A DNA stretch of 64,000 nt. Origin: Microtetraspora malaysiensis. GTDB taxonomy: Bacteria; Actinomycetota; Actinomycetes; Streptosporangiales; Streptosporangiaceae. The first letter of the stretch is position 1; each line of letters opens with the position of its first letter. Shown in pieces: positions 6,187-20,231 of this stretch. The stretch covers positions 129,840 to 193,839 of the forward strand of contig NZ_BBYJ01000016.1 in NCBI RefSeq assembly GCF_001528665.1. Reading direction: 5' to 3'. Position numbers and translations under genes: made by a program. The notes below the pieces were generated by a model. It worked only from the letters and a program-made list of their open reading frames with translations. It was not told the DNA's origin and made no database searches.

Positions 6187-7476
6187 GTGTTCGCTGACCG
6201 GCGTGACGCCGGAACCCGCCTGGGCGAGCGGCTCCGGGACCGGCTCGGGGGCGCGGACGCGGTCGTGGTCGGGCTGCCCCGGGGCGGCGTCGTGGTGGCG
6301 TACGAGGTGGCCAGGGCGCTGGGCGCTCCGCTCGACGTGATCGTGGTGCGCAAGCTCGGTGTGCCGTACCAGCCGGAGCTCGGCTTCGGGGCGATCGGGG
6401 AGGGCGGCGTGCGCGTCCTGAACCCCGACATCGTACGGCTGGCCGGTGTCACGAAAGAGCAGATGGCCAAGGTGGAGGAGGCCGAACGCGAGGAGCTGAC
6501 CCGCCGCGCGGCCCGGTTCCGAGGGGGACGGCCGCGGGTCGAGTCGGCCGGGCGCACGGTGATCGTCGTGGACGACGGCGTGGCCACGGGAGGGACGGCG
6601 CGCGCGGCGTGCCGGGTCGCCCGGGCCCAGGGGGCGAAACGGGTGGTGCTGGCGGTGCCGGTGGGCTCGCCCGACACGATGGACGCGCTGCGCGAGGACG
6701 CCGACGAGGTGGTGTGCCTGCAGACGCCGCGCGACCTGTACGCGATCGGGGCCTGGTACCACGACTTCCCGCAGACGAGCGACGAGCAGGTGGTGGAGCT
6801 GCTGCACCGGGCCATGCGGCCGACGGGGTTCAGCGGCGAGGTCGAGGCGGACGCGGCGGGCGTCCCGCTCGCGGGCCGGTTGACCGTGCCGGAGGGGGCG
6901 CGCGGGATCGTCGTGTTCGTCCACGGCAGCGGCAGCAGCCGGCACAGCCCGCGCAACCGCTACGTGGCGGCGGCGCTCAACCGGGAGGGCCTGGGCACAC
7001 TGCTGTTCGACCTGCTCACCCCGGACGAGGAGATCGACCGGGCCAACGTGTTCGACATCCGCCTGCTGGCCGACCGGCTGCTGGCGGTGACCCGCTGGCT
7101 GCGGGGCCGGCCGGAGGCCGGGGGCCTTCCGCTCGGGTACTTCGGGGCGAGCACCGGCGCCGCCGCCGCGCTGTGGGCGGCGGCGGAGCCGGACGCGGAC
7201 ATCGCCGCGGTCGTGTCACGCGGCGGCCGGCCGGACCTCGCGGGGGAGCGGCTGCCGGCCGTGCGCGCGCCGACGCTCCTGATCGTCGGCGGCGACGACC
7301 ACGTGGTGCTCGGCCTCAACCAGGGGGCCCAGCAGCGGCTCCGCTGCGAGAACCGGCTGCGGATCGTGCCGGGCGCGACCCACCTGTTCGAGGAGCCGGG
7401 CGCGCTCGAGGCCGTGGCCGAACTGGCCCGCGACTGGTTCGCCGAGCACTTCGCCGAGCCGGTCAGGCGTGGCTGA
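6187..7476 (+). CDS. Phosphoribosyltransferase-alpha/beta hydrolase fusion
   Basis: Two domains in one 429-residue chain. Residues ~1-210 are a type I phosphoribosyltransferase with the PRPP loop [14 protein letters not shown] (about 126-139) and the flexible-loop stretch [19 protein letters not shown]. Residues ~220-429 are a dienelactone-hydrolase-like alpha/beta hydrolase with HGSGSS, nucleophile GASTG and a late GATHLFEE histidine. Fused proteins of this type occur across actinobacteria, often in stress-related clusters; their reaction is not established to my knowledge. Start GTG 6187 has GGAGG nine bases upstream and matches the usual MFADRRDAG opening. GTG 6181 is the alternative but sits only 3 nt from the ribosome site. 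Confidence 0.8.
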
Positions 7477-7711
7477 TCATCACGTGCTTGATCCGGGTGT
7501 AGGCGTCGAAGCCGTACCGGGACAGGTCCTTTCCGGTGCCCGAGTGCTTGAAGCCGCCGTGTGGCATCTCCGGGAGGATCACCTGGTGGCAGTTGACCCA
7601 CACCGCGCCGAGGTCGAGCGCGGCGGTCAGCCGCATGGCCCGGCCGGTGTCCCTGGTCCAGACACTGGCGGCGAGGCCGTAGTCCACGCCGTTGGCCAGC
7701 TCGATCGGTTC
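7463..7711 (-). pseudogene. Aldehyde dehydrogenase remnant (C-terminal ~83 codons)
   Basis: Reading from about 7711 to the stop at 7463, the frame gives the end of an aldehyde dehydrogenase: [56 protein letters not shown]. The last motif is typical of the gamma-aminobutyraldehyde dehydrogenase-like group. About 400 N-terminal codons, including catalytic Cys and Glu, are missing. Upstream, the same strand immediately becomes the end of the ferredoxin reductase gene, whose TGA (7720-7722) lies about 9 bases before the first homologous codon. No start or ribosome site precedes the remnant, so it is a deletion scar rather than a gene. It overlaps the end of the facing fusion gene by 14 bp. Confidence 0.8.
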
Positions 7712-7719
7712 TCCCGGGG

Positions 7720-8910
7720 TCAGGCGGCCGCTGGGGCGCGCATCAGCTCGGCGCGGTAGCGCGCGACGGCGGACGGGAGGCCGATCAGCACGACGCCGAC
7801 GAGCGCGCCGCCGTCGTGGTAGCCGACCACGACCTCGCCGTCGAGGTCGCCGTCGAGGACCCGGATGTCGTCCGCGCCGAGTGCCGGGGCGCCGAACGAC
7901 TGGATCCGCAGGTCGTACTGGTCGCTCCAGAACGTGGGCAGCGGCGCGAACGGCGCCGGGTCGGCCGCGCCCAGCGCGAGGTCGGCGAGCAGCGTGACCG
8001 CGGCGCGCTTGGCCGTGTCGGTCGGGATGCTCCAGTGCTCGACCCGCCGCGCCACGCCGTCGTAGCGCGGGTTGGGGAAGCGGGCCACGTCGCCCACCGC
8101 GACCACGCCGGCCCGCCCCTCGACGCGCAGCGCGTTGTCGCACAGCACGCCGTCGGACAGGTCGAGGCCGTTGCCGTCGAGCCACTCGGTGTTGGACGCC
8201 GAGCCGACCGCCTCCACGACGACGTCGGCGTCGAGGCGGGTGCCGTCGGACAGCTCGGCCCCGGCGACCCGGTCCGCGCCGAGGAAGGCCGAGACGGTAC
8301 GGCCCAGCAGGAACCGGACGCCGTGCCGCTCGTGGCGGCGCTGGAGGGCGGCCCCGAGATCGTCGCCGAGCGGGCGGCGCATCGGCACCGCCTCCGGCGC
8401 GACCACGGTCACGTCGGCGCCGAGGAGCCGCGCCGTCGCGGCGACCTCGCATCCGATGAACCCGGCCCCGACCACCAGCACCCGGGCGCCGGGGCCCAGG
8501 TCGCCGCGCAGCGCGCGGGCGTCGTCGAGGGTGCGCACCACGTGCCTGCCCCGGGCCGGGCCCGGCGTGGGCAGCCGCCGCGGCCGCATCCCGGTGGCGA
8601 CCACCAGGCCGTCGTAGGCCAGCTCCGCGCCGTCGGCGAGCCGTACGGCTCCCGCGTCGAGGTCGGCGGAGGCGATCGGGACGCCGAGCCGCCAGGTCAC
8701 GTCGGCGACGGCCGGGCGCAGCCGGAACGCGACCGCCTCGTGGGTCACCTCCGCGGCGAGGGCCTCCTTGGAGAGCGGCGGCCGGTTGTACGGCATGTGG
8801 ATCTCGTCGCCCACGGCGACGATTTCTCCCATGAATCCGGAGGCACGCAGCCGCTCGGCCGCGCGCAGGCCGCCCATCGAGGCGCCCGCGATCAGGATGC
8901 GCCGGCTCAT
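7720..8910 (-). CDS. FAD-dependent ferredoxin reductase (NAD(P)H)
   Basis: A 396-residue pyridine nucleotide-disulfide-type oxidoreductase. The FAD dinucleotide fold is at the start ([18 protein letters not shown]), NRPPLSKE follows, the NAD(P)H fold is [17 protein letters not shown] near 155-171, and the second FAD contact is [13 protein letters not shown]. The C-terminal reductase domain ([16 protein letters not shown]) is typical of rubredoxin/ferredoxin reductases that serve P450s and Rieske oxygenases. It sits 5 bp after the ferredoxin gene, so the pair probably feeds electrons to the P450 at 17808-19055. It is the last intact gene of the long minus-strand operon starting at 12358. Confidence 0.88.
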
Positions 8911-8915
8911 CGCGT

Positions 8916-9104
8916 TCAGTCCTCGATCGTGATGGCCTGCAGCGGGCAGACGTCGGCGGCCTCCTCGACGGCGTCGCGCAGCGACTCGTCGGACTCCGCC
9001 ACGTAGACCAGCCGGCCGTTCTCGTTGATCTGGAAGACCTCGGGGGCGGAGAAGACGCACTGCCCGTGGTCCTTGCAGACGTCCATGTCGACGACGACCT
9101 TCAT
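8916..9104 (-). CDS. Small [3Fe-4S]-type ferredoxin
   Basis: This 62-residue protein has cluster ligands C10, C16 and C53. The CKDHGQC loop has no cysteine at the second ligand position, and CPLQAI follows at the end, which is the pattern of the [3Fe-4S] ferredoxins of actinobacterial P450 systems. It carries single electrons in the cytoplasm from the reductase encoded 5 bp downstream to a monooxygenase. The upstream FAH-family gene ends 20 bp before its ATG, which is preceded by AAGGAG, so it is in the same operon. The only P450 in the window lies in the same cluster and is the likely partner. Confidence 0.9.
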
Positions 9105-9124
9105 GGTGGAACTCCTTGTGATGG

Positions 9125-9970
9125 TTAGCGCTTCGGGGCTCGAATGCCGCGGAACTCCCAGTCGCCGCCGAACGCGGTGGAGAGGACCTCCTCCGACTCG
9201 GTCGGCTGGGCGCCGCAGTCGTCACGGATGGGGGCGGGTCCCTGGACCACGTGGTTGCGCAGCGTGCCGAGGCCCTCGACCTCGACCTCGACCACGTCGC
9301 CCGGCTGGACCGGCCGCGAGTTGGCCGGGGTGCCCGACAGCAGCACGTCGCCCGGGTAGAGCGTGATCGTGCGGGCGATGTCGGCGACGAGGTAGTGCAT
9401 GTCCCACTCCATCTCGTCGGTGGAGCCGTCCTGGGCGACCTCGCCGTTGACGTACGTGCGCAGCCGCTTGCCGCGGAAGTCCCAGTCGGTGACGAGGCCG
9501 GGGCCGAGCGGGCAGAGCGTGTCGGAGCCCTTCACCCGCAGCATCGAGCCGGCGTCGGTGTCGCGGAAGTCGTGCAGGCCGTAGTCGTTGCCCACCGTGT
9601 AGCCGGCGATGTGATCCCCGGCCTCGTCCGGCGAGATGTTGCGCGCGGTGCGGCCGATCACGATGGCCACCTCGCCCTCGTAGTTGAGGTACTCGCACCG
9701 CTCGGGACGGACGATCGCGCCCTTGTGCCCGTTCAGCGCCGAGGTCGGCTTGTGGAAGTACGTCGGCGCCGGGGGCAGCGACGTCATGAACTCCTCGACC
9801 CGGCTGCGGTGGTTCAGATGGACAGCGATGATCTTGCTGGGCACGGACGGCGGCAGGTGGACGGCGTCCTCGACGCCCACCACGCGGCCGTCGGCGCTGA
9901 CCAGCTCGTCGCCCTCGCGGCGCATCTGGGTGGCGGCGCCGTCCAGGAGGATCCTGCGGTACTCGGGCAT
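9125..9970 (-). CDS. Fumarylacetoacetate hydrolase (FAH) family protein, HpaG-like
   Basis: A 281-residue FAH-fold enzyme with the family's metal and substrate signatures: YFHKPTSALNGHKGAI, YEGEVAIVIGRTARN, GYTVGNDYGLHDFRD and GDVLLSGTPANS. Members include the decarboxylase/isomerase of homoprotocatechuate degradation (HpaG), 4-oxalocrotonate decarboxylases and acylpyruvate hydrolases. Placement directly behind an extradiol dioxygenase and a semialdehyde-type dehydrogenase suggests it processes the ring-cleavage product. The true start is ATG 9970, which overlaps the dioxygenase TGA as TGATG. Exact chemistry (decarboxylation, isomerisation or C-C hydrolysis) cannot be told apart from sequence alone. 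Confidence 0.82.
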   Translation of the reverse strand: MPEYRRILLDGAATQMRREGDELVSADGRVVGVEDAVHLPPSVPSKIIAVHLNHRSRVEEFMTSLPPAPTYFHKPTSALNGHKGAIVRPERCEYLNYEGEVAIVIGRTARNISPDEAGDHIAGYTVGNDYGLHDFRDTDAGSMLRVKGSDTLCPLGPGLVTDWDFRGKRLRTYVNGEVAQDGSTDEMEWDMHYLVADIARTITLYPGDVLLSGTPANSRPVQPGDVVEVEVEGLGTLRNHVVQGPAPIRDDCGAQPTESEEVLSTAFGGDWEFRGIRAPKR

Positions 9971-10911
9971 CAACGGGTCCCTTCGAGAGTGAACGGGTAG
10001 GGATACGGGTCACCCGAGCTGTCGGTCGCCCGGGGCGCGGCGAAGCCGCCCTCCGGCCGGTCGAACCAGACGTGCACCTGGCCGGTGCCCGTGGCGTTCT
10101 CGTAGTCGCTGTACTGCCGGCCGGGCGCGGTGAAGTCGTGCTCGCCGAGCGCCCCGGCCATCATCAGGTAGTGGCCGAACCTGGCCTCGGGCTTGACGCG
10201 GTAGAAGTCGGGCATCGTGTCGAGCAGGCGGGCGTGCTCGCCGGCCAGCATCCACGCGATGCGCTCCTCGTCCGCGGCCCGCGCCTCGGGGGAGAAGACG
10301 TGCACGGGGTCGCTGGACTCGTGGGCGCGCAGCTGGCGCAGCGGCCAGAAGGTGTGCGAGAGCGCGCCGGAGGCGATCAGCAGGACCTTGCGGTCGCTCG
10401 CCGCGACGGCCTCGCCGACCGCACGGCCCAGGCGGAGGTTGTCCTCGGTCTCGGCGGTCTGGCACATGCCGATCGAGATCCACCGCTTGCCCGGTACGCC
10501 GAGGTACTTCCACAGGTTGACCGTGGCGTAGAAGATCGGCAGATGGTGGTCGTCGATCGCGGTGATCCAGGTGGAGTGCTTCTCCTGCTGGGCCGCGATC
10601 AGGCGGGCCAGCTCGGGGTCGCCGGGGAAGTCGTAGGGGATCCGGCACATGCCGCGCGGGAGCTCCTCCGAGGTGAAGAGCCCGGAGCGCCGGTCCTGCG
10701 CGGTGACCACGAACTCCACGGTGGTCGCCCAGTGCGAGTCGAAGACGATCACGGTGTCGTAGTCGAGGGTCTCGAAGACCTCTTCCCGCAGGCGCTCCAG
10801 CCCGGGGACGATGCTGATCTCCTTGCCCTCGTTGAGCTCCTTGCGGACCTCCAGGGGCAGCATGATGGTGGGCGCGTGGGCGAGGATGCCAGCGCCGACG
10901 ATCTCACCCAT
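9970..10911 (-). CDS. Extradiol ring-cleavage dioxygenase, LigB/class III (HpaD-like)
   Basis: A 313-residue class III extradiol dioxygenase. The iron-ligand region LAHAPTIM (H12) lies at the N-terminus, FDSHWATT near 58-65 supplies a second conserved His, and a further conserved block is IASGALSHTF near 184-193. These enzymes open catecholic rings next to the two hydroxyls, giving semialdehydes. Its start overlaps the aldehyde dehydrogenase stop by 8 bp and its end overlaps the FAH gene, so the three are tightly coupled. Homoprotocatechuate (3,4-dihydroxyphenylacetate) is the substrate of the best-known relatives, but a different catechol or aminophenol is possible. Confidence 0.83.
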   Translation of the reverse strand: MGEIVGAGILAHAPTIMLPLEVRKELNEGKEISIVPGLERLREEVFETLDYDTVIVFDSHWATTVEFVVTAQDRRSGLFTSEELPRGMCRIPYDFPGDPELARLIAAQQEKHSTWITAIDDHHLPIFYATVNLWKYLGVPGKRWISIGMCQTAETEDNLRLGRAVGEAVAASDRKVLLIASGALSHTFWPLRQLRAHESSDPVHVFSPEARAADEERIAWMLAGEHARLLDTMPDFYRVKPEARFGHYLMMAGALGEHDFTAPGRQYSDYENATGTGQVHVWFDRPEGGFAAPRATDSSGDPYPYPFTLEGTR

Positions 10912-12358
10912 TCCAGCCTCCCGGCGCGGTGACGGTGTTCTTGACGTCGCAGTAGAAGTCGAAGCTCCAGTCGCCGCCCTCGCGGCCGACGCCCGACTGA
11001 CGCGCGCCGCCGAACGGGGCCTGGAGGTCGCGGACGAAGAAGCAGTTGACCCAGACGGTGCCGGCGACCAGCCGCTCGGTGACGCGGTCGGCCCGCTCGC
11101 GGGAGCCGGTCGCGAGGGTGGCGGCCAGGCCGAACTTCGTGGAGTTGGCCATCGCGACGGCCTCGTCCTCGGTGCGGAACGTCTGGAGCGTGAGGACCGG
11201 TCCGAAGACCTCCTCGTTGACGATCTCGCTGTCCGGGGCCACGCCGGTGAACAGCGTGGGCCGGTAGTACAGCCCGCCGAGGTCGGTGTCGGGTCCGCCG
11301 CCGATGACGGGGGTGGCCCCGGCGGCGACGGCCCGCCGGACGAACCCGTCGATCCGCTCGACGTGCTCGCGGTGGATGTTCGGGCCGATGTCGGTGGCGA
11401 GGTCGCGCGGGTCGCCCTGGCGCAGCGTGCTCGCCTTGGCGACGAAACGCTCGGTGAACTCGGCGGCGACGCTCTCCTCGACGAGCAGCCGGGTCGCGGC
11501 CAGGCAGACCTGCCCGGCGTTGTCGTACTGCTCGACCGCGAGGTTCACGGCGAGGTCGAGGTCGGCGTCGGCGAAGACGATCAGCGGGGACTTGCCGCCG
11601 AGCTCCAGCGACAGCGGGGTCAGGTTGGCCGCCGCGGCGCGGGCGATGTGGCGGGCGGTGGGCACCGAGCCGGTGAAGCTGATCCGGCGTACGTCGGGGT
11701 GGGCGACCAGCGGGGCGCCGACCTCCTCGCCGTACCCCTGGATGACGTTGAAGACGCCGTCGGGCAGCCCGGCCTCGACCGTGATCTCGGCGAGCAGCGA
11801 CGCGGTGAGCGGGGACCACTCGGCCGGCTTCAGGACGACCGTGTCACCGGCGGCGAGCGCCGGGGCGATCTTCCAGGTGGCCAGCATGAGCGGCGCGTTC
11901 CACGGGGTGATCAGCGCGCAGACGCCGGCCGGGTCCCAGGAGACGTGGTTGCGGTGCCCGCGGGTCTCGAAGTCGTCGTGCCCGAGCCCGAGCAGCCAGT
12001 CGGCGAAGAAGCGGAAGTTGTGCGCCACCCGGGGCATCACGCCGCGCAGGTGCGACCGCAGCAGGGCGCCGTTGTCGGTCGTCTCCACGATCGCGAGCCG
12101 GTCCAGCCGCTTCTCGACTCCGTCGGCGATCGCGTGCAGCAGCCGCGCCCGCTCCTCACGGCTCGTGCGGGCCCACGCGGGGAACGCTTTGGTCGCGGCC
12201 CGGACCGCCTCTTCGGCCTCCTTCGCGCCGCCGCGTGCGACGCGCGCGATCACCTGTCCGTCGATCGGCGAGACGTCGTCGAACGTCGCAGGTGAGGAGA
12301 CCCATGCGCCTCCAATCCAGTGGTCCTCCTGGATCGTGACATCCCCGACAGTGGCCAT
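10904..12358 (-). CDS. Aldehyde dehydrogenase (hydroxymuconic-semialdehyde type, HpaE-like)
   Basis: A full-length 484-residue NAD(P)-dependent aldehyde dehydrogenase. Visible motifs are the nucleotide-binding PWNAPLMLATWKIAPALAAG, FTGSVPTA, the general base in LELGGKSP and the catalytic cysteine in NAGQVCLAATR. ATG 12358 is preceded by GGAGGAG. As first gene of the operon with an extradiol dioxygenase and FAH enzyme, it likely oxidises the ring-cleavage semialdehyde to the dicarboxylic acid, the role of HpaE in the homoprotocatechuate meta pathway. Operator site 1 (12372-12388) lies 14 bp upstream, within the likely promoter. Confidence 0.87.
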   Translation of the reverse strand: MATVGDVTIQEDHWIGGAWVSSPATFDDVSPIDGQVIARVARGGAKEAEEAVRAATKAFPAWARTSREERARLLHAIADGVEKRLDRLAIVETTDNGALLRSHLRGVMPRVAHNFRFFADWLLGLGHDDFETRGHRNHVSWDPAGVCALITPWNAPLMLATWKIAPALAAGDTVVLKPAEWSPLTASLLAEITVEAGLPDGVFNVIQGYGEEVGAPLVAHPDVRRISFTGSVPTARHIARAAAANLTPLSLELGGKSPLIVFADADLDLAVNLAVEQYDNAGQVCLAATRLLVEESVAAEFTERFVAKASTLRQGDPRDLATDIGPNIHREHVERIDGFVRRAVAAGATPVIGGGPDTDLGGLYYRPTLFTGVAPDSEIVNEEVFGPVLTLQTFRTEDEAVAMANSTKFGLAATLATGSRERADRVTERLVAGTVWVNCFFVRDLQAPFGGARQSGVGREGGDWSFDFYCDVKNTVTAPGGWNG

Positions 12359-12371
12359 CCGCTCCTCCAGT

Positions 12372-12388
12372 TCGTTTGGTCCCAAACA
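12372..12388 (-). promoter_or_regulatory. Cluster operator, site 1 (aldehyde dehydrogenase operon)
   Basis: Read on the minus strand this is TGTTTGGGACCAAACGA, which fits the shared consensus YGTWYG-N4-CAAAYGA exactly and contains a perfect inverted repeat GTTTGG-N2-CCAAAC. It lies just upstream of the ribosome site of the first gene in the catabolic operon, where a bound repressor would block transcription. Confidence 0.7.
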
Positions 12389-12428
12389 ACTTAGGTCGCG
12401 CTCTCCCGGCCAGTCAATATGTCGCTAT

Positions 12429-12445
12429 TGTTTGGAGTCAAACGA
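12429..12445 (+). promoter_or_regulatory. Cluster operator, site 2 (PuuD-like gene)
   Basis: TGTTTGGAGTCAAACGA fits the cluster consensus and is identical to site 1 at 14 of 17 positions. It overlaps a -10-like TATTGT at 12426-12431 and ends 16 bp before the ATG, so binding should repress. The same TATTGTTTG junction of -10 box and operator recurs in front of the glutamine-synthetase-like gene. Confidence 0.7.
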
Positions 12446-12461
12446 CTGCAAGGAGGCTGGG

Positions 12462-13160
12462 ATGCCCGACCGCCGGCCGATCATCGCGATTCCCTCGCGG
12501 TTCGCCGCCACAACGTCCGCGCTCCGTTACTCGGCGGTCGTCACCGCCCGGGCGCTCGCCGACGCCGTCCACCGCGCGGGTGGCGAGCCCTTCCTCATGC
12601 ACCCCGTGGGCGCGGACGAGGCCGCCGCGCGGCTCGCCGTCGCGGACGGCCTGCTGCTCCCCGGCGGGGGCGACCTCTCCCCCTCGGCGTACGGCGAAGA
12701 CGCGGCGCACGAGAGCGTCTACGACGTGGACGCCGAGCAGGACGCCTTCGACTTCGCGGCGGCCCGGCACGCGCTGTCCACCGGGATGCCGACCCTGGCC
12801 ATCTGCCGGGGCCTCCAGGTCGTCAACGTCGCCCTCGGCGGGCGGCTGGTGCAGCACATGGAGCCCGACCACCGCCACGTCGTGCACCCGGTGCGCGTAC
12901 GGCCCGGCTCGCTGCTGGCCGAGGTGACCGGGGCGGAGAAGGTCGAGGCGTCCTGCTACCACCACCAGTGCGCGTCGTCGCTGGGGGAGGGCCTGGCGGC
13001 CGTCGCGCACGCCGAGGACGGCACGATCGAGGCCGCCGAGCCGGCCGCGCGTACGGGATGGTTCCTCGCCGTCCAGTGGCACCCCGAGGACACCGCGGCG
13101 ACCGACCCGGTCAACCAGCGGATCTTCGACGGCCTGGTCGCGGCGGCCCGCTCAGCCTGA
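12462..13160 (+). CDS. Gamma-glutamyl-amide hydrolase (class I glutamine amidotransferase, PuuD-like)
   Basis: A 232-residue class I amidotransferase-like hydrolase with nucleophile C115 in AICRGLQ and the His207/Glu209 pair in QWHPED; GLLLPGGGDLSP is the family oxyanion/glycine strand. PuuD cleaves gamma-glutamyl-GABA to glutamate and GABA. Relatives in aniline-type pathways act beside a glutamine-synthetase-like ligase. Here it probably removes the glutamyl group added by the ligase at 16424-17761. AAGGAGG lies a few bases before the ATG. It is convergent with the MarR gene; a GC-rich hairpin (13169-13197) sits at the shared end. Confidence 0.85.
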   Translation: MPDRRPIIAIPSRFAATTSALRYSAVVTARALADAVHRAGGEPFLMHPVGADEAAARLAVADGLLLPGGGDLSPSAYGEDAAHESVYDVDAEQDAFDFAAARHALSTGMPTLAICRGLQVVNVALGGRLVQHMEPDHRHVVHPVRVRPGSLLAEVTGAEKVEASCYHHQCASSLGEGLAAVAHAEDGTIEAAEPAARTGWFLAVQWHPEDTAATDPVNQRIFDGLVAAARSA

Positions 13161-13724
13161 CCGGCGGCGTCCCCCGCGGCGCGGCGGCGCGGGGGACTCC
13201 CGGCGCAGGTTCTCCCTGCGCTCCTCGCCGTGCTCCTCCAGATGCGTGACGATCCGCCGCAGCGTGTCGGCGAGGTGCAGGGACTCCTCGGCGTCGAGCG
13301 CGCCGACCACGAACGACTCCTCGTCGTTGAACGCGGGGAACAGCTTCTCCATCAGCGCGAGCCCCTCGGGGGTGAGCCGCAGCAGCGCCAGCCGGCCGTC
13401 GTCGGGGTGCTGGCGGCGCTCCGCCAGGCCGCGCGACTCCAGGGTCTTGATGATGCCGGTGAGGGTGCCCTTGGAGATGCCCGCCTCGGCCGCGGCGTAC
13501 CGCGTCTCGATCTCCTCCCAGATCCACACCACCCACAGCACGACGAACGCGCTCCAGGTGAGGTCGGCCGACCGGAGCGCCGAGTTCTCCAGGTGCTGCC
13601 GGACCGCGGCGGCCGCGCGATACAGGTTGGAGACCGCGGCGAGCGCCTCCCTGCGGACCGGAATCGGCCCCAACCTGCGCTTCACCGCCTCCTCGGTTTC
13701 GGAGAGCGAGTAGTGCGCGGGCAC
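13152..13724 (-). CDS. MarR-family regulator, likely controller of the cluster
   Basis: A winged-helix MarR protein of about 190 residues: DLTWSAFVVLWVVWIWEEIETRYAAAEAGISKGTLTGIIKTLESRGLAERRQHPDDGRLALLRLTPEG gives the recognition helix and wing. GTG 13724 has AAAGGAG five bases upstream. ATG 13739 would place that ribosome site inside the coding sequence, so I prefer 13724. The C-terminus is Arg/Pro-rich (APPRRGGRRRSG). It is the only regulator inside the cluster, is divergent from the permease and has the shared operator in its own promoter. I infer that it binds all six sites; MarR repressors typically release DNA on binding a pathway compound. Confidence 0.82.
   Translation of the reverse strand: MPAHYSLSETEEAVKRRLGPIPVRREALAAVSNLYRAAAAVRQHLENSALRSADLTWSAFVVLWVVWIWEEIETRYAAAEAGISKGTLTGIIKTLESRGLAERRQHPDDGRLALLRLTPEGLALMEKLFPAFNDEESFVVGALDAEESLHLADTLRRIVTHLEEHGEERRENLRRESPAPPRRGGRRRSG
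13169..13197. terminator. GC-rich hairpin at convergent gene ends
   Basis: A 10-bp perfect stem GTCCCCCGCG / CGCGGGGGAC with a 9-nt loop lies just after the PuuD-like stop and within the last codons of the MarR gene. There is no T-run, so it would be an actinobacterial-style tail-less terminator at best. Confidence 0.4.
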
Positions 13725-13758
13725 CCCGACTCCTTTCATGTCAAGTCTTGCGCCGGTT

Positions 13759-13775
13759 TCATTTGTACACGTACG
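13759..13775 (-). promoter_or_regulatory. Cluster operator, site 3 (marR side)
   Basis: On the minus strand the sequence is CGTACGTGTACAAATGA, an exact fit to YGTWYG-N4-CAAAYGA and pointing toward the MarR gene, 35 bp from its preferred start. It suggests autoregulation. Confidence 0.65.
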
Positions 13776-13793
13776 ATCCGCCAAACGGCAGGT

Positions 13794-13810
13794 CGTACGC
13801 ACTCAAACGA
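13794..13810 (+). promoter_or_regulatory. Cluster operator, site 4 (permease side)
   Basis: CGTACGCACTCAAACGA fits the consensus and points toward the permease. With site 3 it forms a head-to-head pair separated by 18 bp in the divergent promoter, so the centres are about 35 bp apart. Confidence 0.65.
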
Positions 13811-13900
13811 TCTCATGAATTCCAGTGGTCGGGCCGGTGGGCGGGCAGATCGCTGAAGAGACATCCCCGCTCATCCACCCCTTTTATATGGAAGGTTGCC

Positions 13901-15376
13901 ATGGCCGATGAGGCAATCGCCACCGGACGGCTTTCGGCCGGTGAACAGTCCGCGACGCACACCCTCTCCCGACGTCGGATCGGCGTGCCCGACATCGTCT
14001 TCTTCGTCGTCGCGGCCTCCTCGCCGCTGACCGTCGCGGCCGGCGGCCTTCCGATGAGCTACGGCACCACCGGGGTGACCGGGGTCCCGCTCATCTACCT
14101 GATCCTCGCGGCCGTGCTCGCCGTCTTCTCCGCCGGGTACGCCGCGATGAGCCGGCACATCTCCAACGCGGGCGCGTTCTACTCCTACATCGCGCAGGGG
14201 CTCGGCCGGGTGACCGGCGTCGGCGCCTCGTTCGTCGCGCTCGTCGCGTACAACGCCATGCAGGTCGGCCTGTACGGGCTGTTCGGCGCGGCCGCCGCGG
14301 GGCTGGTCTCGGCGCACCTCGGCGTGGACGTGCCCTGGTGGGTATGCTCGCTGGTCGCCCTCGCGCTGATCGCGTTCCTCGGCTATCGCCGGATCGACCT
14401 GAACGCCCGCGTCCTCGCCGTCCTGCTGGTCTGCGAGGGGCTCACCGTCCTGGTCTTCGACATCGCCCAGGTCGGGAACGCCCCCGCCGGTCTGACCGCC
14501 GAGCCGTTCACCTGGAGCGCCGTCACCACCGGCGCCGTCGGGGCCGGCTTCTGCTGGGTGATGGCGTCGTTCATGGGCTTCGAGTCCGGCGCGATCTACA
14601 GCGAGGAGTGCCGCGACCCGCGCCGCACCGTCAGCCGCGCCACCTACATCGCCGTCGCCCTGATCGGCGTGTTCTACGCCTTCACCGCGTGGGCGATGTC
14701 CATGGGCACCGGCGTCGACAAGATCATCGACGAGTCGGCGAAGAACGGCACCGACCTCGTCTTCATCCTCGGCGAGGCGACCCTCGGCTCGGCGTTCTCC
14801 ACGCTCGCCAACGTCTTCATGGTCACCGCCGTGTTCGCCGCCCTGCTGTCCTTCCACAACGCGGTGGCGCGGTACTTCTTCGCGCTCGGCCGCGAGCGCG
14901 TCCTGCCCGCCCGGCTCGGCGACTCCCACCCCAGGCACGGCTCTCCGTACGTCGGCTCGCTCGTGCAGACGGCCATCGCGCTCGTGGTCGTGGTCGGCTT
15001 CGGCGTCCTCGGCGGCGACCCCACCGGCACGCTGTTCAACTGGTTCACCAACCTCGGCGCGCTCGGCGTGATCCTGCTGCTCGTGGTCACCTCGGTGTCG
15101 GTGCTCGGGTTCTTCCGCCGCGACTCGCGCGGTGAGAACGGCTTCAGCCGCGTCATCGCCCCCACGCTGGCCGGCGCGGCCCTGGCGGCCATCCTCGTGC
15201 TCGCGGTCGTCAACTTCAACGCCCTGCTCGGCACCCCGCCGGACTCGATCCTCAACTGGCTGATCCCCGGCCTCGTCCTGCTCGCCGGGCTCGTCGGCGT
15301 CGGTTACGGCCTGCGGATCAAGGCCGCCGACCCGGCGACGTACGCCCGGATCGGCCACGGCGCTTCCGCCGAGTAG
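13901..15376 (+). CDS. APC-superfamily amino acid/amine permease
   Basis: A 491-residue polytopic membrane protein with about 12 hydrophobic segments and the APC start region VFFVVAASSPLTVAAGGLPMSYGTTG, in which the small-residue loop binds the amino group of the substrate. FMGFESGAIYSEECRDPRRTVSRATY is the family's conserved loop before TM7. The long N-terminus before ATG 13901 is non-coding promoter DNA carrying two operators. Its place among the ligase, hydrolase and P450 genes suggests that it imports the amine or amino acid the cluster degrades. The permease is followed by a strong bidirectional terminator. Confidence 0.87.
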   Translation: MADEAIATGRLSAGEQSATHTLSRRRIGVPDIVFFVVAASSPLTVAAGGLPMSYGTTGVTGVPLIYLILAAVLAVFSAGYAAMSRHISNAGAFYSYIAQGLGRVTGVGASFVALVAYNAMQVGLYGLFGAAAAGLVSAHLGVDVPWWVCSLVALALIAFLGYRRIDLNARVLAVLLVCEGLTVLVFDIAQVGNAPAGLTAEPFTWSAVTTGAVGAGFCWVMASFMGFESGAIYSEECRDPRRTVSRATYIAVALIGVFYAFTAWAMSMGTGVDKIIDESAKNGTDLVFILGEATLGSAFSTLANVFMVTAVFAALLSFHNAVARYFFALGRERVLPARLGDSHPRHGSPYVGSLVQTAIALVVVVGFGVLGGDPTGTLFNWFTNLGALGVILLLVVTSVSVLGFFRRDSRGENGFSRVIAPTLAGAALAAILVLAVVNFNALLGTPPDSILNWLIPGLVLLAGLVGVGYGLRIKAADPATYARIGHGASAE

Positions 15377-15392
15377 CGGTCCGGGCACAGAA

Positions 15393-15422
15393 AAGGAGGG
15401 CCGGGGTGACCCGGCCCTCCTT
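15393..15422. terminator. Bidirectional rho-independent-type terminator
   Basis: A perfect 13-bp stem (AAGGAGGGCCGGG paired with CCCGGCCCTCCTT) with loop GTGA lies between the convergent permease and decarboxylase-like genes. A-rich and T-containing ends flank the stem, so it can serve both strands. Confidence 0.85.
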
Positions 15423-15433
15423 GACGGTTCGCG

Positions 15434-16243
15434 CTACTCCGCGCCGGAGGCGCCCGACTCCAGCAGCGTGCCGCCGTTCCAGACGACCCCGACCTGGCGG
15501 TAGTAGCCGCCGATCATCTCGTCCACCGTGAGGCCGGCGAGCTCCTCGGTCGGCGCGTCGAACAGCTCGATCTCCGCGTCGCCGGTCCAGGCCTGGCCGC
15601 CCTCGAAACTCTCGGCGCCGGTGACGATCAGCTCGTCCAGAGCCAGCCCCTTACCCGGCTCGATCGACCGCAGCCAGCGGTTGTGCGCCATCGGGTGGCC
15701 GTTGACGAAGCCGTTGGTCTCGCTGGGCTCGCGGAGCCGTACGACGGCCTGGGCCAGCCGCCGGTCGGCGGCGGCGAGCGTGGCGCCGAAGACGCCCCCC
15801 TCACCGATCCGCGGCGCGGCCAGGCCGAACGGGTGCGGGCGGGTCATGTGGACGGAGCCCAGCTTCTTCGGGTAGCCCTGGTGGACGCCCCGGGCGATGG
15901 CGAAGTCCTTGTCCACCCAGATGTAGACACACCGCGAGTAGGTCTGCCCCTGGTAGGAGCAGCGCACCACGACGAAACACTCCTTGTACTGCGACCGCAC
16001 GGGGTCCAGCAGCTCCTCGCGGCCTCCGGAGCACGACTGCCAGTCGGCCCAGATCACCGCCACCGCGCCCGGGTCCTCCTCGGCGAGCGAGAGCGGCTCG
16101 GGGAGCAGCGCGGCCACCTTGGCGGGGTCGGTCCGGTATTCCACGGTCAGCAGGTCGCCCGAGTAGTACCAGGGCGGGCTCGGGACCAGCGAGGACCGGC
16201 CGCTCACCGTCTTGGGCGTGTAGAAACCGCGCAGCGTGGCCAC
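15434..16243 (-). CDS. Acetoacetate decarboxylase-family protein
   Basis: A 269-residue member of the acetoacetate decarboxylase superfamily. It has the conserved PPPWYYSG-like opening (SPPWYYSGDLLTVEY), a core EYKE-like stretch (QYKECFVVVRCSYQG) and GYPKKLGSV, which holds the Schiff-base lysine position. Superfamily members catalyse decarboxylation, hydration/dehydration or aldol steps on keto acids through a lysine imine. Its unit carries cluster operator site 5, so it belongs to the same regulon, probably acting on a keto acid arising after ring cleavage or amine removal. Substrate unknown. Confidence 0.82.
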   Translation of the reverse strand: MATLRGFYTPKTVSGRSSLVPSPPWYYSGDLLTVEYRTDPAKVAALLPEPLSLAEEDPGAVAVIWADWQSCSGGREELLDPVRSQYKECFVVVRCSYQGQTYSRCVYIWVDKDFAIARGVHQGYPKKLGSVHMTRPHPFGLAAPRIGEGGVFGATLAAADRRLAQAVVRLREPSETNGFVNGHPMAHNRWLRSIEPGKGLALDELIVTGAESFEGGQAWTGDAEIELFDAPTEELAGLTVDEMIGGYYRQVGVVWNGGTLLESGASGAE

Positions 16244-16269
16244 GGCGCCTCCTTGGGGGTGAGGTCAGT

Positions 16270-16286
16270 TCATTTGGATCCATACG
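16270..16286 (-). promoter_or_regulatory. Cluster operator, site 5 (decarboxylase-like gene)
   Basis: On the minus strand CGTATGGATCCAAATGA fits the consensus exactly. It lies 26 bp upstream of the decarboxylase-like ATG. Confidence 0.65.
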
Positions 16287-16346
16287 ATATGCCCTGAGCT
16301 GGGCATTGTCATCAGCGGACCGCAGATATCTTTCAAAAGTGGACCC

Positions 16347-16375
16347 TTGTTGTCCCCCCAATTGCGGCGTATTGT
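16347..16375 (+). promoter_or_regulatory. Sigma70-type promoter of the ligase/P450 operon
   Basis: TTGTTG (16347-16352) and TATTGT (16370-16375) are separated by 17 bp. The -10 box overlaps operator site 6, which is what a repressor-controlled promoter looks like. Confidence 0.6.
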
Positions 16376-16389
16376 TTGCACCCAAATGA
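16373..16389 (+). promoter_or_regulatory. Cluster operator, site 6 (ligase/P450 operon)
   Basis: TGTTTGCACCCAAATGA fits YGTWYG-N4-CAAAYGA exactly. It overlaps the -10 box and the expected start of transcription, 34 bp before the GTG start of the ligase. Confidence 0.72.
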
Positions 16390-16423
16390 ACCCCCCACGT
16401 GCTGGCACTATCGAGGAGGCCAT

Positions 16424-17761
16424 GTGAGCACGGAGTCCGCGGAACGGGCCGTTCAGCGCCTGCAGGATCAGGGCGTCGACGTCGTCCGTATCGGCTATCC
16501 CGACCTCATCGGCACCGACCGCGGCAAAGACGTGCTCGTCGAACGGCTCCCCGAGGTGTGCGAGAGCGGCGTCGCCTTCTGCCGCGCCGTCTACTACACC
16601 TCGCCGCAGGCCGACGTCGTCCCCGTGCCCGGCGGGCTCGACGAGGGCCTCCCCGACATCTCCATCCGCCCCGACCTGTCCACACTCGTCCCCCTCGCCT
16701 GGGAGCCCGGAGTCGCCTACTGTCTCGGCGACGCGGTCAACCCCGCCACCGGCGAGCCCTTCCCCGAATCGCCGCGCGAGGTCGTCCGCGCCGCCGCCGC
16801 CAAGCTCGCCGAGCTCGGACTGACCGGCGTCGTCGGCCCCGAGCTGGAGTACTTCCTGCTGGAGCCCGACGGCGCGGGCTGGAAGCGCTACGACGACGCC
16901 CCCGGCAACGTCTACGTCGTCGGCGCCAAGGGCGACCGGGGCTCCCACGTGCTGCGCACCCTGCGCACGCTGCGCGGGATGGAACTCGGCGTCACCATGG
17001 GCAACCACGAGTTCTCCGGCGGCCAGTTCGAGATCAACCTCCACCACTCCGAAGCCGTCGACGCCGCCGACCGGGCCTTCCGCTTCAAATCCGCCATCAA
17101 GGAACTGGCCCGCCGCGACGGCATGATGGCCACCTTCATGGCCAAGCCCTTCAACGACGAGGGCGGCTCCGGCTTCCACGTCCACCTCTCCTGCACGGAC
17201 GAGAACGGCCACAACGTCTTCGACGACCCCTCCGAGGCGTACGGGCTCTCGGAGCGGGCCAGGTACGCCATCGGCGGCATTCTCGCGCACGCGCCGGCGC
17301 TCGCCGCCCTGCTCAACCCGACGATCAACTCGTACAAGCGGTTCGGGCCGGACACGCTCGCCCCCTGGCTGATCGACTGGGGCCTCGACAACCGCAGCGC
17401 CATGCTGCGCGTCCCGCCGGAGCGCGGCGCCGGCACCCGCCTGGAAGTCCGGCTCGGCGACGCCTCCGCCAACCCCTACCTCGGCATCGCGGGCCTGCTC
17501 GCCGCCATCTACCTCGGCATCCGCGACCGCGTGGAGCCGCCCGCCCCACTCTCCGGCTACGGCTACGACACCAGCAAGGCCCCCATGCTGCCGATGTCGC
17601 TGCCCGTCGCACTGGACGCCCTCAGCGCCGACACCGCCTTCAGCGAGGTCCTCGGCAAGGAGTTCACCACCGCCTACCTCGCCTACAAGCGGAACGAGGT
17701 CGAGCGCTTCTCCCAGTTCATCACCGACTGGGAGTTCCGCGAGTACGCCTACCACCTTTAG
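16424..17761 (+). CDS. Glutamine synthetase-like gamma-glutamylamide ligase
   Basis: A 445-residue GS-fold protein. GTG 16424 follows GAGGAGG; an upstream extension would run through the operator. Metal and ATP motifs are GPELEYFLLE, NHEFSGGQFEINLHH, GSGFHVHLS, NSYKRFGPDTLAP and RVPPERGAGTRLEVRLGDASANPYL. It lacks the classical bacterial GS adenylylation loop and resembles PuuA/GlnA3-type enzymes, which ATP-dependently join glutamate to an amine. Known relatives act on polyamines, ethanolamine, isopropylamine or aniline. With the PuuD-like hydrolase and permease it gives an import/glutamylate/de-glutamylate set. The P450 follows after 46 bp in the same operon. Confidence 0.87.
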   Translation: MSTESAERAVQRLQDQGVDVVRIGYPDLIGTDRGKDVLVERLPEVCESGVAFCRAVYYTSPQADVVPVPGGLDEGLPDISIRPDLSTLVPLAWEPGVAYCLGDAVNPATGEPFPESPREVVRAAAAKLAELGLTGVVGPELEYFLLEPDGAGWKRYDDAPGNVYVVGAKGDRGSHVLRTLRTLRGMELGVTMGNHEFSGGQFEINLHHSEAVDAADRAFRFKSAIKELARRDGMMATFMAKPFNDEGGSGFHVHLSCTDENGHNVFDDPSEAYGLSERARYAIGGILAHAPALAALLNPTINSYKRFGPDTLAPWLIDWGLDNRSAMLRVPPERGAGTRLEVRLGDASANPYLGIAGLLAAIYLGIRDRVEPPAPLSGYGYDTSKAPMLPMSLPVALDALSADTAFSEVLGKEFTTAYLAYKRNEVERFSQFITDWEFREYAYHL

Positions 17762-17807
17762 CAACCTCTAGTCACTCGTAGTTCCTGAAACCCCTTCTGG
17801 AGGACCA

Positions 17808-19055
17808 ATGCGCCTGGAAGACGTCGACCTGGCGGACAACGACAAGTTCCTCGACGGCGAAACCCCGTGGCGCATGTTCGACGTGCTGCGCGAGCAGGCC
17901 CCGGTGCACTGGCAGGACGAGGGCGACCACGGCAGCGGCTTCTGGTCGATCACCCGTCACGCCGACATCGTCCGCGTCGACCGCGACGCCGAGACGTTCA
18001 CCTCCATGAAGTTCGTCAACCTTGAAGAGGTGGACGAACGCCAGGCCACCATCCGGCGCTCCCTCCTGGAGACCGACGGCCCCCGCCACGGCGTGCTCCG
18101 CCGCATCATGCAGCGCGAGTTCACCCCCAGGGCCGTCGCCGGCTACGAGGTCTTCCTGCGCGGCCTCACCGCCCGCACCCTCGACGCGGCGCTCGCCAAG
18201 GGCACGTTCGACTTCGTGAAGGAGGTGTCCGCCGACTTCCCGATCAACGTCCTGGCCAAGATGCTCGACGTGCCCGAGGACGACACCCAGCAGCTCATCG
18301 ACTGGGGCAACCGGATCATCGGCAACACCGACCCCGACTACGCCGACGTCCTGCTGCACAGCGCCGAGAGCGAGAAGTACCGCGACCTGCCGTTCCGCAG
18401 CCCCGCCTCCATCGAGGTCTTCGAGTACGGCAGGGAGCTGGCCAGGCAGCGCCGCGGCGGCGACGGCACCGACCTCGTCAGCAAGCTCGTCAACGGGACC
18501 CCGTCCGACGGGGTGCCGCTCTCACCGAACGACTTCGACAACTACTTCCTGCTGCTCGTGGTCGCCGGCAACGAGACCACCCGGCACGCCATCTCCCACA
18601 CCATGCGCGCCCTGATCGACCACCCCGAGCAGGCGGAGAAGCTCCGGCAGGACCTCTCCCTCATGCCGAACGCGGTGGAGGAGTTCCTGCGCTGGGCCTC
18701 CCCGGTCTACCACTTCCGCCGTACGGCGACCCGGGACGTCGAGATGCACGGGCAGAAGATCGCCGAAGGCGACAAGGTCGTCATGTGGTTCGGCTCGGGC
18801 AACCGGGACGAGCGGGTCTTCGACTCCCCGTACACCTTCGACGTCACCCGGCAGAACAACGACCACATCACCTTCGGCAAGGGCAGCCCGCACTTCTGCC
18901 TGGGCAACGCCCTCGCCCGCCTGGAGATCCGGGTCATGTTCGAGGAGCTGCTGCCGCGCCTCGCCGACATCAAGCTCGCCGGCGACATCCGCCGGGTCCG
19001 CTCCAACTTCGTCAACGGCATCAAGGAGCTCCCGGTCACTGCCACCCTCGCCTGA
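17808..19055 (+). CDS. Cytochrome P450
   Basis: A 415-residue soluble bacterial P450. The I-helix oxygen-activation motif is AGNETTR (253-259), the ExxR is in EEFLRW and the heme-binding loop is FGKGSPHFCLGN with ligand C364. The C-terminal SNFVNGIKELPV is typical of the CYP124/125/142-like branch. It hydroxylates or dealkylates using electrons from a ferredoxin, most likely the 62-residue ferredoxin and reductase in the same cluster. Co-transcription with the glutamylamide ligase (46-bp gap, TGGAGG before ATG) suggests that its substrate is either the amine or its gamma-glutamyl derivative. Family assignment is by eye. Confidence 0.9.
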   Translation: MRLEDVDLADNDKFLDGETPWRMFDVLREQAPVHWQDEGDHGSGFWSITRHADIVRVDRDAETFTSMKFVNLEEVDERQATIRRSLLETDGPRHGVLRRIMQREFTPRAVAGYEVFLRGLTARTLDAALAKGTFDFVKEVSADFPINVLAKMLDVPEDDTQQLIDWGNRIIGNTDPDYADVLLHSAESEKYRDLPFRSPASIEVFEYGRELARQRRGGDGTDLVSKLVNGTPSDGVPLSPNDFDNYFLLLVVAGNETTRHAISHTMRALIDHPEQAEKLRQDLSLMPNAVEEFLRWASPVYHFRRTATRDVEMHGQKIAEGDKVVMWFGSGNRDERVFDSPYTFDVTRQNNDHITFGKGSPHFCLGNALARLEIRVMFEELLPRLADIKLAGDIRRVRSNFVNGIKELPVTATLA

Positions 19056-19751: not shown

Positions 19752-20093
19752 ATGCTCCACCGCGTACTTCTGGCCAGTTCCGCCTGCGTCGCGCTCGCCG
19801 TCATGGCGCCAGTCGCCGCTTCGGCGGAGACGTTCACAATGCAGAGCTCGGCTACTGTCGCGCAGGCCGACAGCGCCGCAGTCAACACCACCCACAGCGA
19901 CTGGGGCCGACCGGGCGGCTGGGGTCGGCCGGGCGGCGGCTCCTGGGGTCGCCCCTGGGGTAACCCGTGGGGCGGGTCCTGGGGTCGGCCCTGGGGTAAC
20001 CCGTGGGGCGGGTCCTGGGGTCGGCCCTGGAGCGGCGGCGTAGTTGTCGTCGGCGACTGCGCCCTCGACTACTACGGGGACTTCTGCTTCTGA
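19752..20093 (+). CDS. Small secreted protein with Trp/Gly/Pro tandem repeats
   Basis: A 113-residue protein with a clear signal peptide ([25 protein letters not shown], cleavage before ETF). A polar linker of about 30 residues follows, then a repeat block built on [12 protein letters not shown]. The 36-nt unit is tandemly repeated about two and a half times at 19977-20037 and upstream. The end is [13 protein letters not shown], with two cysteines that could form a disulfide. AGGAG lies about 13 bases before ATG 19752. I do not recognise the family; Gly/Trp repeats suggest a cell-surface, matrix-binding or low-complexity structural role, but this is a guess. It sits alone between gene scraps. 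Confidence 0.72.
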
Positions 20094-20171
20094 AATGAAC
20101 CGGGTGGATTCTCAACGAGAACCACCCTCGAGGATCGGCACGAATCCTCGTGTCGAGCAGGCGCGTAGACA

Positions 20172-20208
20172 CCCCAGACTGTCAGCAAATTTTGCTGACA
20201 GTCTGGGG
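20172..20208. repeat. 37-bp perfect palindrome
   Basis: Two 18-base arms (starting CCCCAGACTGTCAGC) pair perfectly around one central base. It lies 79 bp after the Trp/Gly-repeat gene, but no T-run follows. It could be a tail-less terminator for that gene, or the end or joined ends of a lost transposable element. Confidence 0.85.
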
Positions 20209-20231
20209 TCGTCCGGCTGCGGTAGGCCGTG

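Follow-up and report, generated by a model that had tools for sequence, protein, structure and literature searches.

A putative gamma-glutamylation and ring-cleavage regulon of Microtetraspora malaysiensis, probably serving the catabolism of arylethylamines such as tyramine

What is accomplished by a gene set that joins the amine half of a glutamylation pathway to the ring-opening half of an aromatic one? This question is raised by about eleven genes between positions 7472 and 19055 of a 64,000-nucleotide stretch of the Microtetraspora malaysiensis genome (assembly GCF_001528665.1, contig NZ_BBYJ01000016.1, positions 129,840 to 193,839 of the forward strand; the whole stretch is called the window in the following). 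Among their products are a glutamine synthetase (GS)-like ligase, a PuuD-like amidase, a LigB-type extradiol dioxygenase and a cytochrome P450. The initial annotation of this DNA had proposed a single linked glutamylation-type unit for an aromatic amine that includes a P450 with its own ferredoxin and reductase, and had placed this P450 in the position of the Rieske enzyme of an aniline-like scheme. Linkage and a common operator bear out the first of these proposals; the second does not fit the ring enzymes and the ligase neighbours described below. With a probability of about two in three we consider the cluster to be a regulon for complete arylethylamine catabolism, the substrate most likely being tyramine, dopamine or both, where the gamma-glutamyl group stays on the amine to protect it.

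The cluster extends from the remnant of an aldehyde dehydrogenase gene at 7472 to the end of the P450 gene at 19055. Families were assigned by Pfam and NCBIfam models and exact coordinates were computed, which provided the following genes:

7472..7714, minus strand: remnant of a second aldehyde dehydrogenase (ALDH2) of the aminobutyraldehyde-dehydrogenase type, C-terminal ~80 amino acids, PRK13473 profile positions 394-474
7720..8910, minus strand: ferredoxin reductase, 396 amino acids, Pyr_redox_2 and Reductase_C
8916..9104, minus strand: small ferredoxin, 62 amino acids, CxxHGQC...CP, from frame reading; homologues adjoin the reductase in many relatives
9125..9973, minus strand: FAH-family enzyme, HpaG-like, proposed isomerase/decarboxylase; FAA_hydrolase 194.6 bits
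9970..10911, minus strand: LigB-type extradiol dioxygenase, HpaD-like; TIGR02298 127 bits, cut-off 316
10904..12358, minus strand: first aldehyde dehydrogenase (ALDH1), HpaE-like semialdehyde dehydrogenase; TIGR02299 524 bits, cut-off 638
12462..13160, plus strand: PuuD-like amidase of the Peptidase_C26 family, proposed gamma-glutamyl-4-aminobutyrate (gamma-glutamyl-GABA) hydrolase; Peptidase_C26 169 bits
13152..13739, minus strand: MarR-family regulator, probably repressing the regulon; MarR, with a weak HpaR match (41 bits, cut-off 121)
13901..15376, plus strand: APC amino-acid/amine permease; AA_permease
15434..16243, minus strand: enzyme of the acetoacetate decarboxylase (ADC) superfamily, MppR branch, proposed hydratase/retro-aldolase; ADC 197 bits
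16424..17761, plus strand: GS-like gamma-glutamyl-amine ligase, 445 amino acids; Gln-synt_C
17808..19055, plus strand: cytochrome P450, proposed ring hydroxylase; p450, nearest solved relatives named CYP125/CYP124

The five minus-strand genes from the ferredoxin reductase to ALDH1 form a tight operon. The regulator and the MppR-branch enzyme are read from the same strand, and the amidase, the permease and the ligase-P450 pair from the plus strand. Families found were an Aldedh C-terminal fragment, a Pyr_redox_2 reductase, FAA_hydrolase, LigB, a full Aldedh, Peptidase_C26, MarR, an amino-acid permease, the ADC family, Gln-synt_C and P450; the ferredoxin (CKDHGQC...CP) was called from its reading frame, outside the family-library scan. 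All genes that the initial annotation had named were thus recovered in place or close by. Its 'decarboxylase-like' gene at 15434-16243 exists, and lies nearest to the MppR branch of the ADC superfamily. The semialdehyde-type dehydrogenase was confirmed; the remnant of a second aldehyde dehydrogenase and the operator had gone unmentioned.

Linkage was assessed by searching 150 genomes of the same family with the ligase, LigB and the P450; for ligase and P450 the scoring covered about a dozen candidates in each genome. Ligase relatives of at least 64% identity and LigB relatives of at least 68% occurred in the same 19 of the 150 genomes, which, as related members of one family, do not represent 19 independent events. 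In 18 of the 19 both genes lay on one contig within about 10.5 kb (exception G061). Among the matches listed, full-length ligase relatives showed an identity gap from 64% to 40% (G061 also has a 71% fragment), and LigB relatives spanned 100% to 68%, below which there were fragments of 67% (G019, which has a full copy too), 63% (G052) and 52% (G073) and otherwise listed matches of at most 35%. Close P450 relatives (at least 64%) were found in 13 genomes, all among the 19, and adjoined the ligase in 13 out of 13. The condition that the initial annotation had named as refuting its idea, P450 and ligase blocks lying apart in relatives, is thus not what was observed. Six genomes with ligase and LigB had no close P450 relative (G061, G120, G067, G098, G019, G036).

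A wider search of named genomes with LigB returned 153 relatives, from which the best 80 loci were kept, some of them apparently in genomes of the family set. At least 9.9 kb on both sides of LigB were available for 52 of the 80. Within these full-flank loci ALDH1 was present in 52, the FAH enzyme in 49, the ligase and the ADC-superfamily enzyme in 46 each, P450 and MarR in 40 each, the PuuD-like amidase in 31, the permease in 28, ferredoxin reductase and ferredoxin in 26 each, ALDH2 (recognised by 37-46% identity to ALDH1) in 23, GATb in 14, LLM in 10 and a decarboxylase in 5. Since the same set recurs around LigB relatives it is more than a chance assembly; the about eleven genes form a real set and behave as one unit. 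Ligase and P450 were adjacent on the same strand in 31 of the 39 full-flank loci holding both. Six full-flank loci had no ligase nearby: four carry a 55-74% GS elsewhere in the genome, and for L061 and L104 no GS above 40% was found in the genome. Loci without P450 were followed up in 12 genomes or records, i.e. nine of the 12 such full-flank loci together with L036, L072 and the plasmid record of L115; outside this set stayed L033 (P450 beyond the flank), L034 (apparently G061, without close P450) and L082 (same genome as L067). A P450 of 70-75% identity was encoded elsewhere in two of them (L036, L067), and the other ten had no full-length P450 match above 45%, with partial ones reaching 50%. 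The ligase is thus nearly indispensable and the P450 optional, as would fit a P450 that provides the catechol from monophenolic substrates.

Copies of the cluster were also seen on linear Streptomyces plasmids, namely in S. canus (L114, 140 kb) and, without P450, on pSLUN1 of S. lunaelactis (L115, 127 kb). Given these copies the pathway can be plasmid-borne.

The units of the cluster share more than their position. An 18 bp palindrome, TYRTTTGNNNNCAAAYRA, occurs six times in the window with at most 2 mismatches, two copies being located in each of three divergent promoter regions:

12372..12389: operator 1, before ALDH1, TCGTTTGGTCCCAAACAA, 0 mismatches
12428..12445: operator 2, before the amidase, TTGTTTGGAGTCAAACGA, 0 mismatches
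13759..13776: operator 3, before MarR, TCATTTGTACACGTACGA, 2 mismatches
13793..13810: operator 4, between MarR and the permease, TCGTACGCACTCAAACGA, 2 mismatches
16270..16287: operator 5, before the MppR-branch enzyme, TCATTTGGATCCATACGA, 1 mismatch
16372..16389: operator 6, before ligase and P450, TTGTTTGCACCCAAATGA, 0 mismatches

By chance 0.11 copies would be expected in the window, and none of 100 shuffles gave six. In the whole genome the palindrome has three perfect and two 1-mismatch sites, and the cluster contains all of the former and one of the latter. The remaining 1-mismatch site (C38:121907) precedes a gene that looks unrelated on visual inspection, and we attribute it to chance. 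With up to 2 mismatches 22 places were found compared to 11 for the reversed control pattern, so that lone 2-mismatch sites mean little. As the pattern was derived from the window sites, the loci of the relatives provide the independent test. Over the 80 loci (1.44 Mb) 50 of 52 perfect sites lay at most 260 bp upstream of cluster genes (32 loci), as did 111 of 116 sites with up to 1 mismatch (48 loci) and 199 of 213 with up to 2 (69 loci), where the sites are partly non-independent because close sister species share sequence. The reversed pattern gave 0, 0 and 2 sites at these stringencies, none near a cluster gene. Sites were furthermore found directly upstream of unlinked ligase-decarboxylase pairs in two Crossiella genomes (L128, L129), at an unlinked lone ligase (L130) and at a group of P450, GATb, permease-like and LLM genes (L132); the ligase starts in L128-L130 are match coordinates, as the open reading frame calls there run too long. 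No site with up to 2 mismatches was present in the Novosphingobium copy (L116). The cluster units thus belong to one regulon with a common operator. We infer that the MarR protein is what binds the operator, and it probably represses all six transcription units via the palindrome. On pSLUN1 a 1-mismatch palindrome (L115, 2343) precedes an M14 zinc carboxypeptidase gene, a possible extra regulon member.

These observations bear on the idea that two independent pathways simply lie side by side, one for poly- or monoamine use (ligase, amidase, ALDH2, permease) and one for an aromatic acid of the 4-hydroxyphenylacetate kind (LigB, ALDH1, FAH enzyme, MppR-branch enzyme, P450). Each half does have familiar relatives, and in some genomes the ligase unit stands apart from the ring unit. 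Against this, close ligase and LigB relatives go together in all 19 family genomes that have either, one operator governs both halves including unlinked ones, and two relatives examined already possess a separate true HpaD. In addition, among the window's cluster proteins, to which the search was confined, no DAO-family (PuuB-type) match exceeded the Pfam cut-off (the ferredoxin reductase came to 26.9 bits, cut-off 27.9). Two unrelated neighbours are therefore an improbable explanation.

The ligase itself departs from glutamine synthetases. It fails the GlnA type I and type III cut-offs (297.6 and 293.6 bits against 469.6 and 429.2) as well as the gamma-glutamylputrescine synthetase model NF045547 (GGputSyn; 265 bits, cut-off 650). 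Residues mapped through PDB alignments revealed that the D50 motif is missing and that the E327 position holds L, with SYKR and LEVR retained. The same position is L in 41 and I, M or A in 4 of the 45 ligases that could be parsed out of 54 from the cluster. According to the accessible part of PMC6529630, organic-amine ligases have lost D50 and E327. The GoaS criterion of PMC11335346 combines a sequence part, loss of StGS Asp50 with a longer loop there, with absence of ammonia activity; on the sequence part, an alignment shows the Asp50 motif to be lost and the loop to be longer. Loss of Asp50 in glutamyl-organic-amide synthetases is described in that source. The amidase stays below the PuuD model (PRK11366, 65 bits, cut-off 266), and its Peptidase_C26 score is above the family cut-off.

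The three ring enzymes resemble those of the Hpa pathway while falling short of its curated models. LigB fails the HpaD model (TIGR02298, 127.2 bits, cut-off 315.95), ALDH1 fails the HpaE model, which is nonetheless the best of all models for it (TIGR02299, 523.9 bits, cut-off 638.35), and the FAH enzyme remains below PRK12764 (228.8, cut-off 444) and the HpaG C-terminal model (202.9, cut-off 276.4). In LigB the residues H12, H60, E242 and H186, which we take to be iron ligands and catalytic histidine, are invariant in 76 aligned sequences (7 HpaD and 69 from clusters, including the window's). The cluster sequences differ from the 7 HpaD at many positions that are fixed or nearly so in both groups. 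An ordinary Hpa pathway was rejected, because these cut-offs are unmet and because true HpaD genes are located elsewhere in the two relatives examined: in L117 a true HpaD scoring 348 bits and a true HpaE scoring 695 bits stand at a locus of their own, and L119 likewise has a true HpaD, scoring 338 bits, so that the cluster is not the ordinary Hpa pathway of these organisms. Public annotation of L115 and L116 calls the LigB family 'catechol 1,2-dioxygenase', an intradiol name unfit for the LigB fold family.

The ADC-superfamily enzyme scores 173 bits against the MppR model TIGR04460 (cut-off 380) and is closest to the MppR branch, aligning with MppR and with PDB 6eej, 4zbo and 4jm3. Its lysine region PKK matches PKQ of MppR, where the lysine presumably has a catalytic role. 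A part for the superfamily in meta-cleavage phenol degradation by Saccharolobus is suggested, and no more, in the accessible part of PMC7820114. The P450 family gives no clue to the substrate.

Several loci vary in their oxygenase equipment. L059, L081 and L090 have two P450 genes around or near the ligase, perhaps for two ring hydroxylations starting from phenethylamine. Where the pair of ferredoxin and ferredoxin reductase is missing, a PaaE/BenC-like flavin-ferredoxin reductase (scanned in L038) adjoins the cluster (L035, L038, L051, L077, L078, L083, L089), with operator matches near its start in L035, L051, L077 and L089. In the Kutzneria locus L082, which has no P450, a FAD_binding_3 aromatic-hydroxylase-like gene (6826-8490) lies upstream of ALDH1. 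At 1107-7585 of L121 a P450 (51%) adjoins a GS-like gene (33%), a permease-like gene and an acyl-CoA dehydrogenase; this is apparently a different glutamyl-amine cluster without LigB in its 9-kb stretch.

Which amine enters the pathway is indicated by decarboxylase neighbours. PF00282 decarboxylases occur in 12 of the 80 loci: in L036, in five loci where they are 66-76% identical to that of L036 (L037, L060, L067, L070, L085) and in six where identity is 27-35%. In those five the decarboxylase adjoins the ligase or is one gene off, in L036 and on pSLUN1 it follows the FAH gene, and the unlinked Crossiella ligases of L128 and L129 adjoin a decarboxylase 68-69% identical to that of L036, away from LigB. 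Tyrosine decarboxylases are the best models for L036, L060 and L115 (122-139 bits, all below cut-off), compared to 39 and 30 bits with the glutamate decarboxylase model for L036 and L060. The top PDB matches of the L060 protein are 5hsi, which we take to be a tyrosine decarboxylase, 6ebn and 7cwx. Since the genomes concerned have 1-7 genes of the PF00282 kind each, a decarboxylase within 10 kb of the cluster should rarely arise by chance, though the close group shares ancestry. The tyrosine-decarboxylase-like genes beside the ligase suggest an amine made from an aromatic amino acid, the simplest candidates being tyramine and dopamine. L060 and L070 combine decarboxylase and ligase with no close P450 in the genome, and on pSLUN1, where the plasmid was searched, no close P450 was found either, as would be expected if L-DOPA were the start; L037 holds both decarboxylase and P450. 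A CrtO/amine-oxidase-like FAD protein is in line with the decarboxylase in L060, L067 and L070 (the L060 and L070 copies are 84-87% identical to that of L067); a FAD gene of Kutzneria L067 had no match to a PuuB model at 1e-12.

The aniline-like scheme, in which aniline would be glutamylated, oxidised by the P450, de-glutamylated and then ring-opened, can be judged against these data. The ligase does share its lost ammonia residues with glutamyl-organic-amide ligases such as the 1-naphthylamine enzyme (accessible part of PMC11335346). The ring enzymes are of the HpaD, HpaE and HpaG kinds, however, and since the amine leaves the ring in that scheme, neither a decarboxylase partner nor the 4-aminobutyraldehyde-type dehydrogenase found in relatives would be needed. 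We rejected it as very unlikely, also in view of the tyrosine-decarboxylase-like ligase neighbours in several relatives. The order of events in this scheme, de-glutamylation before ring opening, is likewise not supported: the amidase adjoins ALDH2 in 23 of the 80 loci, with PuuC as the best model in the one scanned, for which reason hydrolysis of gamma-glutamyl-GABA by the amidase is most likely the final step.

A closer competitor retains the glutamyl-protected logic for another aryl-alkylamine, such as benzylamine or an O- or N-methylated phenethylamine (3-methoxytyramine, hordenine), with the P450 as a demethylase. It profits from a P450 family that is silent on substrate. After the plasmid copy in S. 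canus (L114, 24181-27041) a C1-handling set of GcvT-like methyltransferase, PurU and FolD genes follows, a hint that methylated amines may feed the cluster there. Such genes were present in one of the three annotated plasmid loci, to which the search was limited. In several relatives the ligase has a decarboxylase beside it, which suggests an amine directly derived from an aromatic amino acid, and a C4 end product of the 4-aminobutyraldehyde type fits an ethylamine side chain and not benzylamine. We hold another amine to be rather unlikely, yet the least unlikely of the three alternatives.

For tyramine the pathway would proceed as follows, where substrate, order of steps and the reaction of each enzyme are proposals from homology and gene context. 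The amine would be imported by the permease or, in some relatives, made by the tyrosine-decarboxylase-like enzyme, and be converted by the ligase to gamma-glutamyl-tyramine. With the glutamyl group still attached, P450, ferredoxin and reductase would hydroxylate the ring to the catechol, which the HpaD-like LigB enzyme would cleave in 2,3 position. ALDH1 would oxidise the semialdehyde, the FAH enzyme would isomerise and decarboxylate, and the MppR-branch enzyme would carry out hydration and retro-aldol cleavage to pyruvate and gamma-glutamyl-4-aminobutyraldehyde. The latter would be oxidised to gamma-glutamyl-GABA by the 4-aminobutyraldehyde-type dehydrogenase and finally hydrolysed to GABA and glutamate by the PuuD-like amidase. 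The products follow from the well-known stepwise carbon bookkeeping of the Hpa pathway: if the CH2COOH side chain is swapped for CH2CH2-NH-Glu, the same steps would lead to pyruvate and gamma-glutamyl-4-aminobutyraldehyde, which is a Puu intermediate. The Hpa pathway itself ends in pyruvate and succinic semialdehyde/succinate (accessible part of PMC12718150). The Hpa-like and the Puu-like half of the cluster are each without what the other would supply. Free amines on ring-opened products of this kind cyclise, betalamic acid formed from DOPA being a known case, and glutamylation could then be understood as a means of protection. The glutamyl cap would prevent this spontaneous cyclisation and feed gamma-glutamyl-4-aminobutyraldehyde straight into the Puu endgame.

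In the ALDH2 slot the gene has decayed. Microtetraspora NBRC 16547 (L030) has an intact gene in the corresponding position, whose C-terminus is 93-94% identical to the remnant, and in M. glauca and M. niveoalba (L028, L029) the gene is gone, such that the ferredoxin reductase abuts the next gene. Elsewhere the slot is filled by two dehydrogenase subfamilies, one beside the ferredoxin reductase in L030-L033 (Microtetraspora, Microbispora, Sphaerimonospora) and an L037-like one in many others. The gene of L032 is of the PRK13473 type (639.5 bits, above cut-off), and for L037 PuuC is the best model (534 bits, below cut-off). In the window no full-length aminobutyraldehyde dehydrogenase exceeds the PRK13473 cut-off of 615. 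As only a remnant is left, the step is either done from elsewhere, e.g. by a 61% paralogue (G000:C4:30451, beside a gene that is ABC-transporter-like by eye), or the pathway is incomplete here.

This decay, together with the absence from the same place in two sister species, counts against tyramine or dopamine catabolism as the role of the cluster, and further points do so as well. Neither amidase type is nearby in 18 of the 52 full-flank loci (19 with other thresholds). The window cluster has no decarboxylase gene, the genome's two PF00282 matches being on other contigs, and the amine may thus be external. The distant decarboxylases are unspecific, with diaminobutyrate decarboxylase as best model for L096 and histidine decarboxylase for L106, while L056, L074, L099 and L100 were outside the scan. 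In the ligase the equivalents of Y179 and E212 are apparently retained, so the ammonia pocket is not wholly lost. The hydratase/retro-aldolase step is proposed from homology, and visual inspection of the families present in at least 5 loci, no model search having been made, recognised neither a CHM isomerase (HpaF) nor a separate hydratase. Palindrome sites exist in L039, L044 and L054, where no MarR was found nearby. Finally, a second LigB match is absent from the window's own genome, which limits the argument from separate true HpaD genes to the relatives.

Known systems share parts of the proposed route. With the Hpa pathway the cluster has in common HpaD-, HpaE- and HpaG-like enzymes, a MarR regulator and the proposed order of chemistry (compared with the accessible part of PMC12718150). 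It differs by scores below the curated cut-offs, by having no recognised HpaF, HpaH or HpaI, by the additional ligase and amidase and by a P450 in place of HpaBC. HpaBC is the usual hydroxylase there. With the Puu pathway it shares the GS-like ligase, PuuD-like hydrolase and permease in the window and a PuuC- or aminobutyraldehyde-type dehydrogenase in relatives; no PuuB-type oxidase was seen in the cluster, and aldol cleavage of the opened ring is the proposed source of the aldehyde. Pathways for aniline and 1-naphthylamine employ a Rieske dioxygenase, and the amine is lost before ring cleavage. Morpholine and piperidine clusters of mycobacteria resemble ours in P450, ferredoxin, reductase and GS-like gene, but they are not known to contain a ring-cleavage dioxygenase, a semialdehyde dehydrogenase or an FAH enzyme. 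As proposed for the cluster, a GS-like enzyme glutamylates the aromatic amine before ring oxidation in the aniline and 1-naphthylamine cases (AtdA, NpaA; accessible part of PMC11335346). The cluster instead has a P450, an extradiol LigB and a glutamyl group that is proposed to be kept; Pfam scans of its proteins, with the 62-residue ferredoxin outside the scan, gave no Rieske family. GlnA4-dependent ethanolamine use in Streptomyces coelicolor combines GS-like ligase, aldehyde dehydrogenase, amidotransferase, transporter and D50/E327 loss (accessible part of PMC6529630), without aromatic chemistry. Directly downstream of our cluster (window 20044-21021) a chloramphenicol phosphotransferase-like protein is encoded (PF07931, 242 bits).

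Glutamylating an amine before oxidation is a known general idea; retaining the glutamyl group during extradiol opening of the ring would, to our knowledge, be new. Open-access literature held no description of such a cluster or pathway, with preprints and most subscription papers beyond the reach of the search. The tyramine routes described use amine oxidases (PMC4591350 and PMC2991359, as far as accessible).

We consider the odds slightly better than even that a widespread, so far undescribed route exists in which gamma-glutamate protects a biogenic aromatic amine through P450 hydroxylation, extradiol opening, decarboxylation and aldol cleavage to yield GABA, glutamate and pyruvate. If so, it would be a second complete bacterial route for tyramine and dopamine besides amine oxidation to 4-hydroxyphenylacetate, and would join the textbook Hpa and Puu pathways through one common intermediate. 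It would provide a chemical reason for glutamylation other than uptake or detoxification, and a function for the families of GS-like ligases, P450s and MppR-branch enzymes that co-occur in many actinobacteria and in some proteobacteria.

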